Part shown: positions 9,538 to 34,489 of the stretch, in pieces
Position numbering within the stretch: the stretch's first letter is position 1
Layout: the number at the start of each line of letters is the position of its first letter
DNA from: Gaiellales bacterium
Lineage (GTDB): Bacteria; Actinomycetota; Thermoleophilia; Gaiellales; JAICJC01
Direction of reading: 5' to 3'
DNA: 48,238 nucleotides
Assembly (NCBI GenBank): GCA_036273515.1
Contig: DASUHM010000011.1
Coordinates: forward strand, 1-48,238
The notes under the pieces: generated by a model
What the model was told of the DNA's origin: nothing
What the model saw: only the letters and a program-made list of their open reading frames with translations
Databases searched by the model: none
Position numbers and translations under genes: made by a program

Positions 9538-10382
9538 ACCTCCTCCACGACGGAGGCGAAGCCGCGAGCGCGCCCGAGCACGACGGCGCCGCCGGCGACC
9601 GCGGCGATGGCGGCTGCCAGGCCGAGCCGGCGTCCGGCCGACGCCGGCCAGGTCTCGCCGAAGAGGGCCGGCGCGAGCGCCACCGGAATGAGCGTCTGTG
9701 TCGCCAGCACGAGCGGCGCGACCGTCGCCGGGCCGGCGGTCCGCAGCGCGCTCAGCTCGTCGATGCCCCCGGTGGCGGACGCGAGCGCCGTGGCCACGAG
9801 GAACGCGGCGGCCGTGACGGGAGCGCCGGTGCCGGCGTCGGTGAGGAGCTTGGTCGTGATCGCCGAGAGCGCGAACGCGGCGCCGGCCGCCATCGGCAGC
9901 AGCCGCGCGACCCAGACCGACCGCCGGCGCACGAGCGGCGCGGCTCCGGCAATCGCCAGCACAACGATGACCGCCGCCAGCGGCCGTGCGTCGGCGTGCC
10001 CCGCACTTCGAGCCGGGGAGAGCGCCGCGACGCCGCCGATGCCGGCGGCGAGCACGCACGCGGCCGCCGTCTCGCGCCGGCCGAGCCGCTCGTCCGTCAT
10101 CGCCCAGGCCAGCACGACCACCGCGACGACGGTGAACGCGAGCGCCGGCTGCACCACGGTCACGGGCGCGAGCAGGAGCGCCGCCACCTGGAGGCTCCAG
10201 CCGACCAGCGTCACGAACGCGCCGACGAGCCAGCGCGGCGAGCGCGCCAGCCGCACCAGCAGCCGCACCCGCAGGGCGTCGGCGGCCGGCGCCGCGGCCG
10301 CGATCTCGGCCTGCAGCACGGTCCCGAGCCCGAACATCGTCGCCGCGGCGACCGCGAGAGCCGTGCCGGCCAGGGTGTCCAC
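9480..10382 (-). CDS. DMT-superfamily (EamA/NIPA-like) membrane transporter
   Basis: This encodes a 300-residue integral membrane protein with about nine or ten hydrophobic helices, arranged as two repeats of a drug/metabolite transporter. Recognisable segments are FGLGTVLQAEIAA near the N-terminus, LVGWSLQVAALLLAPVTVVQ and the second-half LVLATQTLIPVALAPALFGE. Substrate unknown; relatives carry metabolites, quaternary amines or cations. The GTG at 10382 was chosen because TAGCGT lies 7 nt upstream (leaderless); an in-frame GTG at 10391 is also possible. It is divergent from the MBL hydrolase. Its 3' end runs 58 bp into the tetR remnant. Confidence 0.8.
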   Translation of the reverse strand: MDTLAGTALAVAAATMFGLGTVLQAEIAAAAPAADALRVRLLVRLARSPRWLVGAFVTLVGWSLQVAALLLAPVTVVQPALAFTVVAVVVLAWAMTDERLGRRETAAACVLAAGIGGVAALSPARSAGHADARPLAAVIVVLAIAGAAPLVRRRSVWVARLLPMAAGAAFALSAITTKLLTDAGTGAPVTAAAFLVATALASATGGIDELSALRTAGPATVAPLVLATQTLIPVALAPALFGETWPASAGRRLGLAAAIAAVAGGAVVLGRARGFASVVEEVHDLGASSSEQAASANQRS

Positions 10383-10389
10383 GGCCCGC

Positions 10390-10395
10390 ACGCTA
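10390..10395 (-). promoter_or_regulatory. -10 element, leaderless start of the DMT transporter
   Basis: On the minus strand TAGCGT lies 7 nt before the GTG at 10382. GGGGAG just upstream of it could alternatively serve the GTG at 10391. Confidence 0.5.
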
Positions 10396-10421
10396 CTCCC
10401 CGGCCTCCACCCGGGCTCGTG

Positions 10422-10427
10422 TACCCT
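10422..10427 (+). promoter_or_regulatory. -10 element, leaderless start of the MBL hydrolase
   Basis: TACCCT lies 9 nt before the GTG at 10437; no Shine-Dalgarno sequence is present. It sits back to back with the DMT promoter, 27 nt away. Confidence 0.55.
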
Positions 10428-10436
10428 CGGGCGGCC

Positions 10437-11315
10437 GTGGACACGTCCAACCTGCGCACCTTCGAGCTGACCGACACGCTGCTCGGCTTCTACGACGGGC
10501 GCATGTCCGGCCCCGAGCTCGGCCCGGACGCGACCTGGGTCGAGGACGGCGCGCTCTCCCTCGGCACCTGCAGCTTCGCCGTCGTCGACGGCGCCGACGC
10601 GCTGGTCTACGACACCCACGTCTCCGTGCCGCACGCCCGCGCGATCCGGGACGAGGTCGAGCGCCGCGGGGCGAGCCGGATCACCGTCGTCCTCAGCCAC
10701 TGGCACCTCGACCACATCGCCGGCACCGAGGCGTTTGCGGACTGCGAGGTGATCGCAAACGCCCTCACCGCCGAGCTCATGACCGAGCACCGGGCCGAGA
10801 TCGAGGAAGGGCGCAAGTCCGGCCCGCCGGCGATCTCGCCGCTCATCCTGCCGACGCGGGCGTTCTCGGGCGCGCTGCATCTCGATGTCGGCAGCGTCGG
10901 CGTCGACCTGCTCGAGTTCGACATCCACAGCCGCGACGCGACCGTCCTCCACATCCCGGCCGAGAGCATCCTGCTCGCCGGCGACACGCTCGAGGACACG
11001 GTCACCTACGTGTCCGAGCCGGACGGGCTCACCCGCCACCTGGAGGAGCTCGAGCGCCTGCGCGCGCTCGGCGCGGCCCGGATCTATCCGAACCACGGCA
11101 GCGTCGAGCGGATCACCGCAGGCGGCTACGACGAGGGACTGATCCTGGCGACCGAGCGTTACGTCGAGGATCTGCTGCGTCACGCCCGCGACCCGCGGCC
11201 GGAGGACGCCGACCTGCGCGCGTTCGTGGCCGGCTCCCTCGACGCGGGCTGGATCGACTACTTCGCGCCGTACCAGCGCGTCCACGAGAGCAACCTCGAC
11301 AGCGTGACGAGCTAG
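10437..11315 (+). CDS. Metallo-beta-lactamase-fold hydrolase
   Basis: This is a 292-residue soluble hydrolase. The binuclear metal site HxHxDH is intact (LSHWHLDH: His88, His90, Asp92, His93). Later ligands are also visible: His in DATVLHIPAE, Asp in LLAGDTLED, His in IYPNHGSVE. The N-terminal beta region and the C-terminal helices fit the general MBL family. No motif points to a beta-lactamase, glyoxalase or RNase Z in particular, and the substrate is unknown. GTG 10437 is the only start compatible with the nearby -10. Its TAG stop shares CTAG (11312-11315) with the convergent MocR gene. Confidence 0.88.
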   Translation: MDTSNLRTFELTDTLLGFYDGRMSGPELGPDATWVEDGALSLGTCSFAVVDGADALVYDTHVSVPHARAIRDEVERRGASRITVVLSHWHLDHIAGTEAFADCEVIANALTAELMTEHRAEIEEGRKSGPPAISPLILPTRAFSGALHLDVGSVGVDLLEFDIHSRDATVLHIPAESILLAGDTLEDTVTYVSEPDGLTRHLEELERLRALGAARIYPNHGSVERITAGGYDEGLILATERYVEDLLRHARDPRPEDADLRAFVAGSLDAGWIDYFAPYQRVHESNLDSVTS

Positions 11316-32154: not shown

Positions 32155-33336
32155 TCAGCGGGCGAGCTCGGCGAGCGCCCCGGCGAGCACCTGGGCGGCG
32201 GCGACGCAGTCGTCGTCGGAGGCCGACTCGGCCGGCGTGTGGCTGGCGCCGGTGGGGTTGCGGACGAAGATCATCGCCGCCGGAACGTCGGGCGCCAGGA
32301 TGCCGGCGTCGTGGCCGGCGTACGAGGGCAGGTCGCCCGCGCTGACGCCCGCCGTCTCCGCCGACGCGTAGAGGGCCGCCCGCAGGCCGTCATCGAACCG
32401 GGCGCCGGTGTTGCGTGACTCCTGGGTGAGGGTCGCGTCGGGGAAGCGGCCGCGCAGGTCGGCGACGAGGTCGTCGACGGTCTCGAGCAGGAGCGCGCGG
32501 GTGTCGAGCGTGCACGCCACCCGGCCCGGGATCGAGTTCGTGGAGCCGGGGGAAATCTCGACCCGGCCGACGGTGCCGACGGCGTTCGGGCGACTCCGGG
32601 CCGCCTCGTCGACGGCGAGCACGAAGCGGGCGGCCTCGACGAGCGCGTCCCGGCGGCCGGCCATCGGGGTCGTCCCGGCATGGTTCGACTCGCCCTCGAA
32701 GACGGCGCGGAAGCGCGACCGGGGCGCCAGCACGTCGGCGATGCCGACCGCCTGGCCGCGGTCGATCAGCGCCTTGCCCTGCTCGACGTGCACCTCCAGG
32801 AAGCAGGCGATCTTGCGCAGCTCGTCGCGGCTTTCGAGCAGCGACTCGCGCGTCACGCCGTGGATCGCCGGCGCGTCGCCCATGGCGGCGAGCACGGCGT
32901 CGATGTCGAGCCGGCCGGTGACCGCGAGGCTGCCGAAGCAGGAGTTGCGGAAGCGGGCGCCCTCCTCGTCGACGAACGAGATCACCGCCAGCGGCCGGGA
33001 GCGTGGCTCGCCCGACTCGAGGCTCGCCGCGACGGCCTCGAGCGCGCAGACGACGCCGAGCGCGCCGTCGTAGGCGCCGCCGTCCGGCTGGGTGTCGACA
33101 TGCGAGCCCGCGCACACGTACGGGCCGTCGCCGGCGCCGGGCGTGACGGCCCACATGTTGCCGGAGCCGTCCTTGCGCACCTCGAGGCCGATGCCCTCCG
33201 CCTCCCGCCGGAACCACTCCTGCGCCTCGACCTCGAGCGCCGTCCACGCCACCCGGTTCCACCCCGTGTCCGTGCGGCCGATGTCGGCCAGCTCGGCGAA
33301 CCACCGTAGGAACCGTTCTCGGGAGACCGCCGGCAT
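32155..33336 (-). CDS. M20-family amidohydrolase (AllC/HyuC type), probably N-formyl- or N-carbamoyl-amino-acid hydrolase
   Basis: This 393-residue zinc amidase has His79 in CAGSHVDTQPDGGAYDGALGV (bridging Asp90), the acid pair in VDEEGARFRN (Glu124, Glu125), a mid-protein HVEQGKALIDRG and the last ligand His in GASHTPAESAS. This pattern is the hydantoinase/carbamoylase (AmaB, allantoate amidohydrolase) branch of M20. Its start lies only 22 nt from the start of hutF on the other strand. In Streptomyces a gene annotated as allantoate amidohydrolase sits beside hutF in the histidine-degradation cluster. By analogy this enzyme may remove the formyl group from N-formyl-glutamate, the HutF product. 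That role is inference. Confidence 0.88.
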   Translation of the reverse strand: MPAVSRERFLRWFAELADIGRTDTGWNRVAWTALEVEAQEWFRREAEGIGLEVRKDGSGNMWAVTPGAGDGPYVCAGSHVDTQPDGGAYDGALGVVCALEAVAASLESGEPRSRPLAVISFVDEEGARFRNSCFGSLAVTGRLDIDAVLAAMGDAPAIHGVTRESLLESRDELRKIACFLEVHVEQGKALIDRGQAVGIADVLAPRSRFRAVFEGESNHAGTTPMAGRRDALVEAARFVLAVDEAARSRPNAVGTVGRVEISPGSTNSIPGRVACTLDTRALLLETVDDLVADLRGRFPDATLTQESRNTGARFDDGLRAALYASAETAGVSAGDLPSYAGHDAGILAPDVPAAMIFVRNPTGASHTPAESASDDDCVAAAQVLAGALAELAR

Positions 33337-33343
33337 CGGGTCT

Positions 33344-33350
33344 GGAAGGA
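33344..33350 (+). promoter_or_regulatory. Shine-Dalgarno sequence of hutF in the 22-nt divergent gap
   Basis: GGAAGGA ends 8 nt before ATG 33359. On the opposite strand TATCCT (33353-33348) stands about 11 nt before the M20 start and could be its -10, so ribosome site and promoter overlap. Confidence 0.45.
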
Positions 33351-33358
33351 TACGAGAG

Positions 33359-34489
33359 ATGTCCGCCGCGACGATGCGCCTCCCCGGGTTCGTGAACGCG
33401 CACAGCCACGCCTTCCAGCGCGGCATGCGCGGCGTGGTCGAGCGCGTCGAGGAGGCCCATCCCCACGACGACTTCTGGACGTGGCGCGAGGAGATGTACG
33501 CCGCCGCCGGCCGGATCGACCCCGACTCGGCCCACGCCGTCGCCCTGCTCGCCTACCGCGAGATGGTCGCGGCCGGGTTCGTCGCGGTCGGCGAGTTCCA
33601 CTACGTGCACCACCGCCCCGACGGCTCCCCGTACGCGCCGGCGAACGCGATGTCGCTCGCGACCGCGGCCGCCGCCGATGAGGCCGGCATCGACCAGGTG
33701 CTCCTGATGACGGCCTATGAGCGGGCCGGGGCGGGCCTCCCGCCGACGCCCGGCCAGCGCCGCTTCTGCGACCCGGACGCGGCCGCCTACCTGGCGCGGG
33801 TCGACGCGCTCGCCGCCGAGCGCCCCGCCGGCCGGGTCGGTCTCGCGCCCCACAGCGTTCGGGCCGTTTCGCGCGACTGGCTCGTCGAGATCGGCCGCTA
33901 CGCCGAGTCGACCGGGATGGTCGTCCACGTGCACGCATGCGAGCAGCGGCGCGAGATCGAGGAGTGTCTGGCCGAGCACGGCCGCCGCCCGATCGAGGTT
34001 CTTGCAGACGCGGGCTGCCTGGGCCCGCGCACCACGATCGTGCACGGCACCCACGCGTCCGACGCGGAGCTCGACCTGCTGGCCGAGGCCGGCGCGTCCG
34101 TCTGCCTGTGCCCGACCACCGAGGCGAACCTCGGCGACGGCTACCTGCCGGCGCTGCGCCTGTTCGAGCGCGGCATCCGCGTCTGCATCGGCACCGACTC
34201 CAACACGATCATCGACCCGGTCGCCGAGGTGCGCGAGGTCGAGGCGGTCGCCCGCCGCACCGCCGAGCGCCGGAACGTGCTCGTGGCGGCCGGCGACGAC
34301 GGCCCGACCGGCTACCTGCTCACCGTCGGCAGCCGCTACGGCGCAGAGGCGCTGGGCCTCGACTCGGTGGCCGACGTCGAGCTCGACCTGTCCCACCCGT
34401 CCCTCGCCGGGGTCGCGGAGCGCGATGCGGCGGCGGCGCTGATCTTCGGCGGATCCGCCGCCGCGCTGAAACCCCCGGAGGACCGCTGA
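33359..34489 (+). CDS. hutF: Formimidoylglutamate deiminase
   Basis: This 376-residue amidohydrolase-superfamily enzyme converts N-formimidoyl-L-glutamate to N-formyl-L-glutamate and ammonia in histidine catabolism. The family signature VNAHSHAFQRGMRG is present (His15, His17). Other metal and catalytic residues lie in VVHVHACEQRREIEE, TTIVHGTHAS and VCIGTDSNTIIDP. The length is a little under the usual ~450 because the N-terminal beta-domain is short: the protein starts only a few residues before LPGFVNAHSH. That may hint at a divergent substrate. ATG 33359 has GGAAGGA 8 nt upstream. The stop is coupled (TGATG) to an acyl-CoA dehydrogenase gene. Confidence 0.87.
   Translation: MSAATMRLPGFVNAHSHAFQRGMRGVVERVEEAHPHDDFWTWREEMYAAAGRIDPDSAHAVALLAYREMVAAGFVAVGEFHYVHHRPDGSPYAPANAMSLATAAAADEAGIDQVLLMTAYERAGAGLPPTPGQRRFCDPDAAAYLARVDALAAERPAGRVGLAPHSVRAVSRDWLVEIGRYAESTGMVVHVHACEQRREIEECLAEHGRRPIEVLADAGCLGPRTTIVHGTHASDAELDLLAEAGASVCLCPTTEANLGDGYLPALRLFERGIRVCIGTDSNTIIDPVAEVREVEAVARRTAERRNVLVAAGDDGPTGYLLTVGSRYGAEALGLDSVADVELDLSHPSLAGVAERDAAAALIFGGSAAALKPPEDR

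Follow-up and report, generated by a model that had tools for sequence, protein, structure and literature searches.

Two hydrolases of unrelated fold, an M20-family amidase and a peptide deformylase (PDF)-family protein, replace each other in a HutF-tied gene position of actinobacterial hut clusters. This exchange of two folds in one slot is more informative than the stretch of DNA that was analyzed, 48,238 nucleotides of a contig from a Gaiellales bacterium (the window), in which an M20 gene and hutF lie head to head. We tentatively propose, giving the idea slightly less than even weight, that the M20 enzyme, recruited at least twice, and the PDF-family protein have each replaced HutG in the HutF-type pathways of actinobacteria, the window holding a divergent copy beside glutamate formimidoyltransferase (FTCD). 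Most actinobacterial genomes with the HutF-type clusters surveyed here carry no HutG of the PF05013 family, so that the last enzyme of this route needs candidates; should the M20 and PDF-like proteins fill the slot, the long-missing step would gain two.

Slot genes of HutF-type clusters across the phylum

We surveyed 246 genomes drawn from the phylum, among which HutF was detected in 63 (E value of 1e-60 or better), a PF05013 protein in 17, HutU in 101, and FTCD in 84. In a 77-row maximum-likelihood tree, the window M20 falls inside a 39-row clade (support 100/99) composed of 26 hutF-adjacent M20s of other actinobacteria, 6 from family f3, 5 from the window's family, a second copy from G042, and the member from G214, a genome for which neither HutF nor HutU gave a hit. 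The window protein is 40% to 48% identical to the hut-cluster M20s of this clade, for which the usual gene order is hutU-M20-hutF-hutI. A second, separate M20 clade (100/100), found in family f19 and usually arranged as hutH-M20-hutU-hutF-hutI, is, judged by sequence, an independent entrant into hut clusters. Altogether, an M20 gene lies in the cluster or beside hutF in 32 of the 63 HutF genomes (27 from the window's clade, including the contig-end fragment of G129, which was placed by similarity, and 5 from the f19 clade). Streptomyces breaks down histidine via formylglutamate, and the earlier note on this DNA stated that it keeps an "allantoate amidohydrolase" gene next to hutF; such an arrangement (hutU-M20-hutF-hutI) recurs in many actinobacterial genomes and in Nonomuraea gerenzanensis, but Streptomyces itself is not among the names in the data. 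In family f3, FTCD is found in 0 of 8 genomes, HutF adjoins hutU in 3 of the 4 genomes read (G208 has them on separate contigs), and an M20 of the window's clade is present elsewhere in the genome. The second copy of G042 lies away from hut genes, head to head with a carbamate-kinase-like frame (Table 1), hinting at a carbamoyl substrate for that copy.

The co-occurrence of the M20 clade with hutF, for which the earlier note had proposed a survey, is pronounced: 25 of the 26 genomes in which a clade member exceeds the NF006770 cut-off carry HutF, lying within 1.5 kb, compared with 38 of the 220 others (Fisher p = 5e-16, uncorrected for kinship). At 40 control hutU loci from genomes without a HutF hit, M20 was present once and a peptide deformylase never (0/40), the lone M20 being that of G184, where the contig stops 163 bases past hutU. 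Either slot gene occurs in 29 of 38 HutF genomes without FTCD as against 9 of 25 with FTCD (p = 0.0018). Since genomes were treated as independent, these P-values are optimistic; the families involved number 12 for M20 and 4 for the PDF-like gene. The name "allantoate amidohydrolase" that NCBI gives to the clade is probably incorrect, as had been suspected.

The PDF-family (TIGR00079) gene was found in the hut clusters of six genomes from four families (Table 1), between hutU and hutF in G091, G188, G097, and G162, between hutF and hutI in G145, and just past hutI in G218, a member of the window's class. The encoded proteins share an RYPYKP motif and a C-terminal TTW...F..H...F motif and retain the catalytic motifs GAGxAAxQ, EGCLS, and QHExDH. 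M20 and the PDF-like gene never share a cluster (0/38), and in the HutF tree the occupant of the slot switches while HutF stays, with 14 label changes in total; for PDF, at least 2 changes are forced by starred branches, and the HutF of G218 nests beside a large-genome clade carrying M20. Exchange between M20 and PDF is a more direct pointer to deformylation than the M20 context by itself. A hut-linked peptide deformylase as a replacement was not found in the open-access literature searched, which is no proof of novelty.

Neither slot gene is present in 25 of the 63 HutF genomes; the HutF of 12 of these is of a distant type with low scores, and several have clusters interrupted by contig ends. 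When these clusters were searched for further recurring genes, mostly antisense frames came up, with no clear candidate. In family f9, a metallo-beta-lactamase-fold-like hydrolase is found repeatedly near hut clusters with the low-scoring HutF type. PF05013 hits in nine M20-bearing genomes were considered as hidden HutGs and rejected: the PF05013 proteins of large actinobacterial genomes are encoded apart from the hut genes, and the four scored with TIGR02017 reached 39 to 62 bits against the HutG cut-off of 278.75 and are therefore not HutG equivalogs.

The head-to-head pair in the window

The reading of the earlier note, that HutF and an M20 amidase of the carbamoylase/allantoate branch start 22 nt apart on opposite strands and that HutF is shortened at its N-terminus, holds throughout. 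All five genomes of the window's family (G000 and G246 to G249) retain the head-to-head pair, with gaps of 20 to 22 nt between aligned ends, and purifying selection acts on both genes (pairwise dN of approximately 0.05 to 0.27 versus dS of approximately 0.3 to 0.7 among the five genomes), so that the pairing is not due to chance and both genes are maintained. An alternative M20 start codon at 33426 would run into HutF, and the ATG given in Table 1 is retained in all five relatives.

Table 1. Positions of the gene pair, the hut genes, and the other loci described in the text
Feature	Position	Strand	Remarks
M20 amidase (hydantoinase/carbamoylase branch, HutF-linked clade), 393 aa	32155-33336	-	ATG 33336, stop 32155; TIGR01879 over cut-off
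HutF, N-formimino-L-glutamate deiminase, 376 aa, without N-terminal segment	33359-34489	+	ATG 33359, stop 34489; NF006681
Spacer between both start codons, 22 nt	33337-33358	.	kept in all five family members
hut cluster of the window's genome	contig C43		FTCD, hutH, hutU, short-chain-dehydrogenase-like frame, hutI
Short-chain-dehydrogenase-like frame	L046:~10096-10779		G000 contig C43, between hutU and hutI
Second HutI-like gene	G000:C51:35168-36211 (L036)		at contig end
Second hut-like cluster	L154:5335-13994		G249 contig C143
PDF-like genes of hut clusters	L170:9007-9582, L171:9759-10334, L172:10144-10719
PDF-like genes of hut clusters	L173:4949-5518, L174:8815-9384, L054:7351-7908
Metallo-beta-lactamase-fold-like hydrolase	L213:4046-5194		also in six other f9 genomes
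Carbamate-kinase-like frame	L128:3625-4539		G042 contig C43

On the plus strand, the spacer contains GGAAGG, likely the ribosome site of HutF to judge by sequence, and on the minus strand TATCCT, possibly the -10 element of a near-leaderless M20 transcript. At 22 nt, it cannot accommodate two promoters of the usual kind; M20 may be transcribed without a leader, and hutF may be driven from a promoter within the M20 gene. None of the neighboring genes relates to histidine: downstream of HutF are those for an acyl-CoA dehydrogenase and a cupin protein, and the family search on the opposite side of the pair gave no recognized family. A contig search with the window protein retrieved two Thermoleophilia metagenome-assembled genomes of the same genus, followed by distant Bacillota and other M20s, with no informative named actinobacteria among the matches; the nearest named relatives are Thermoleophilia metagenome-assembled genomes.

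The M20 protein scores 277.5 against TIGR01879 (cut-off 204) and, having the M20 fold, is devoid of the FGase domain of HutG (PF05013). Its AlphaFold model (pLDDT 93.3) best matches the L-N-carbamoylase 3n5f in the PDB and also matches ureidoglycolate and allantoate amidohydrolases. H79, D90, E125, H183, and H366 (putative metal ligands), E124 (putative base), and N267 and R280 (putative carboxylate binders) are all present and universal or nearly so among the 77 M20s; we take their roles to be those of the corresponding beta-alanine synthase residues. R208 was dropped as a marker of glutamate specificity because it also occurs in 12 of 35 comparison M20s, 2 of them within the clade. That the protein is an ordinary allantoate amidohydrolase or carbamoylase standing by hutF through chance is highly improbable and already disfavored: some public models do call its relatives allantoate amidohydrolase, but it stays under every allantoate cut-off (348 versus 372 for NF006770 and 182 versus 598 for AllC, TIGR03176), the pair persists in all five genomes, and the linkage to HutF extends across the clade.

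HutF scores 429.6 bits against NF006681 (cut-off 362), the match covering profile positions 50 to 414 of 451, and 386 against TIGR02022 (cut-off 413), where the match starts at position 48 and the cut-off is missed because some 48 N-terminal residues are absent. No upstream frame encodes the missing segment, the DNA there being the M20 gene. The small beta domain is accordingly incomplete in its N-terminal part, and the five family members begin just ahead of an LPGF/VPGF motif. The active-site motifs of the barrel (HSH, EFHY, HSVRA, HVHxxEQ, HxTH, CPTTEA, and SD/TD) are present, and all those alignable with HutF of P. aeruginosa are retained. An AlphaFold model built with 16 relatives (mean pLDDT 89.7, pTM 0.90) has P. 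aeruginosa HutF 3mdu as its best PDB match (TMq 0.90, rmsd 2.2). Short HutF-like proteins are typical of both the window's family and family f2 (~330 aa), which group together in a quick HutF tree (support 89), and the N-terminal loss is therefore a lineage trait rather than an assembly error.

Histidine degradation in the window's genome

The pair sits outside the hut cluster, on a contig other than that of hutHUI. In the cluster, FTCD exceeds the TIGR02024 cut-off (228.1 versus 221.25) and is the gene immediately before hutH in each of the five family genomes; histidine can therefore be degraded without HutF, M20, or a deformylase. The earlier note saw no hutG next to the pair, and PF05013 has no match anywhere in the genome (97% complete); with FTCD present, the claim that the last step is missing here is nevertheless not tenable. 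The presence of FTCD is no proof of histidine flux, because the enzyme can also serve in the removal of 5-formyltetrahydrofolate (PMC3223725) and many class members have FTCD without hutU.

These observations bear on a somewhat unlikely alternative, namely that the pair no longer serves histidine degradation, FTCD taking formiminoglutamate while the short HutF and M20 use another N-formimino/N-formyl compound, such as N-formimino-aspartate. The position of FTCD beside hutH throughout the family and the separate contig of the pair are consistent with such a diversion, as are the missing HutF N-terminus and the grouping with short f2 HutF-like proteins (G111, G175, and G299) that have no M20 alongside; G111 and G175 likewise retain FTCD beside hutH. 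Against it stand the complete set of shared barrel motifs, the superposition of the model on P. aeruginosa HutF, and the membership of M20 in the hut-cluster clade.

Two further loci of the family were recorded (Table 1). The genome of G249 contains a second hut-like cluster with a GcvT/demethylase-like gene, a full-length HutF, HutI, a divergent HutH, and a HutU closest to S-methyl-thiourocanate hydratase but under the cut-off, possibly for the breakdown of methylated histidine. In the window's genome, a second HutI-like gene scores above the TIGR01224 cut-off; it may stem from contamination (3.9% for the genome).

Predicted reaction, published precedent, and known systems

On sequence grounds, the leading reading, with about even odds, is that the M20 protein is an N-formyl-L-glutamate deformylase dedicated to HutF. 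As the partner amidase, it would follow the conversion of N-formimino-L-glutamate to N-formyl-L-glutamate and ammonia by HutF and would cleave the product to formate and glutamate. On the model of beta-alanine synthase and L-carbamoylase, the predicted two-metal center (H79, D90, E125, H183, and H366) and the general base E124 would activate water for attack on the formyl carbonyl, R280 and N267, both in the lid domain, would hold the alpha-carboxylate, and R208 would be a candidate for binding the side-chain carboxylate. N-formyl amino acids can be substrates of the L-carbamoylases in this family; our literature search on this activity of carbamoylases returned nothing usable. In other actinobacteria, M20 would be the principal last step of the Hut pathway, and in the window's genome a second exit alongside FTCD.

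The idea is not new. COG0624 was predicted in 2011 as an "Alternative form of N-formylglutamate deformylase," listed under "Experimental - Histidine Degradation," and the Streptomyces avermitilis protein showed no detectable deformylase activity under assay conditions that are not given (PMC3223725, BMC Genomics 2011, Table 3, case 20). From the subsystem name, we infer that the protein assayed was the hutF-adjacent one. The proposal of the earlier note that the M20 clade is an alternative deformylase is thus favored by the linkage to HutF (25/26) and the near absence of M20 from HutF-less clusters (1/40), but the negative assay, FTCD by hutH in all five genomes, and the position of the pair outside the hut cluster count against it, as do G214 and the neighbor of the second G042 copy.

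The negative assay also fits a different and distinctly unlikely activity, an N-carbamoyl-L-glutamate amidohydrolase salvaging hydantoin-5-propionate-type side products of the Hut pathway, like ErtE in ergothioneine breakdown. The closest solved relatives cleave N-carbamoyl amino acids, a paralog has the carbamate-kinase-like neighbor, and ErtE (N-carbamyl-L-glutamate amidohydrolase, NF058540) is the third-best NCBIfam match of M20; yet the score of 286.5 bits is far from the cut-off of 520, no hydantoinase was noticed next to M20 in the window (a different M20 of the genome adjoins a dihydropyrimidinase), and the exchange with a PDF-family gene also speaks against it. If the deformylase reading is true, a set of "allantoate amidohydrolase" genes is misnamed, and the 2011 prediction, dropped after one negative assay, merits a retest with better-chosen proteins.

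Among known systems, the SEED case (COG0624, "N-formylglutamate deformylase, alternative form"; PMC3223725) shares superfamily and prediction with the window M20, whereas the latter is divergently paired and outside the hut cluster and the S. avermitilis protein was negative. HutG (PF05013/TIGR02017) has the same proposed reaction and pathway position but an unrelated fold. L-N-carbamoylase (3n5f), beta-alanine synthase (1r3n), and the allantoate and ureidoglycolate amidohydrolases (1z2l and 4pxb) have the fold and the full catalytic and carboxylate-binding set in common with M20, the context of which is HutF rather than hydantoin or purine breakdown. HutF of P. aeruginosa (3mdu and 4rdv) is 38% identical to the window HutF and shares its barrel and active-site motifs, whereas the window protein begins at approximately profile position 48, missing the N-terminal part of the small domain. 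Finally, the peptide deformylase family (TIGR00079), unrelated in fold to M20 and absent from the window, stands in for M20 in the hut clusters of six genomes.
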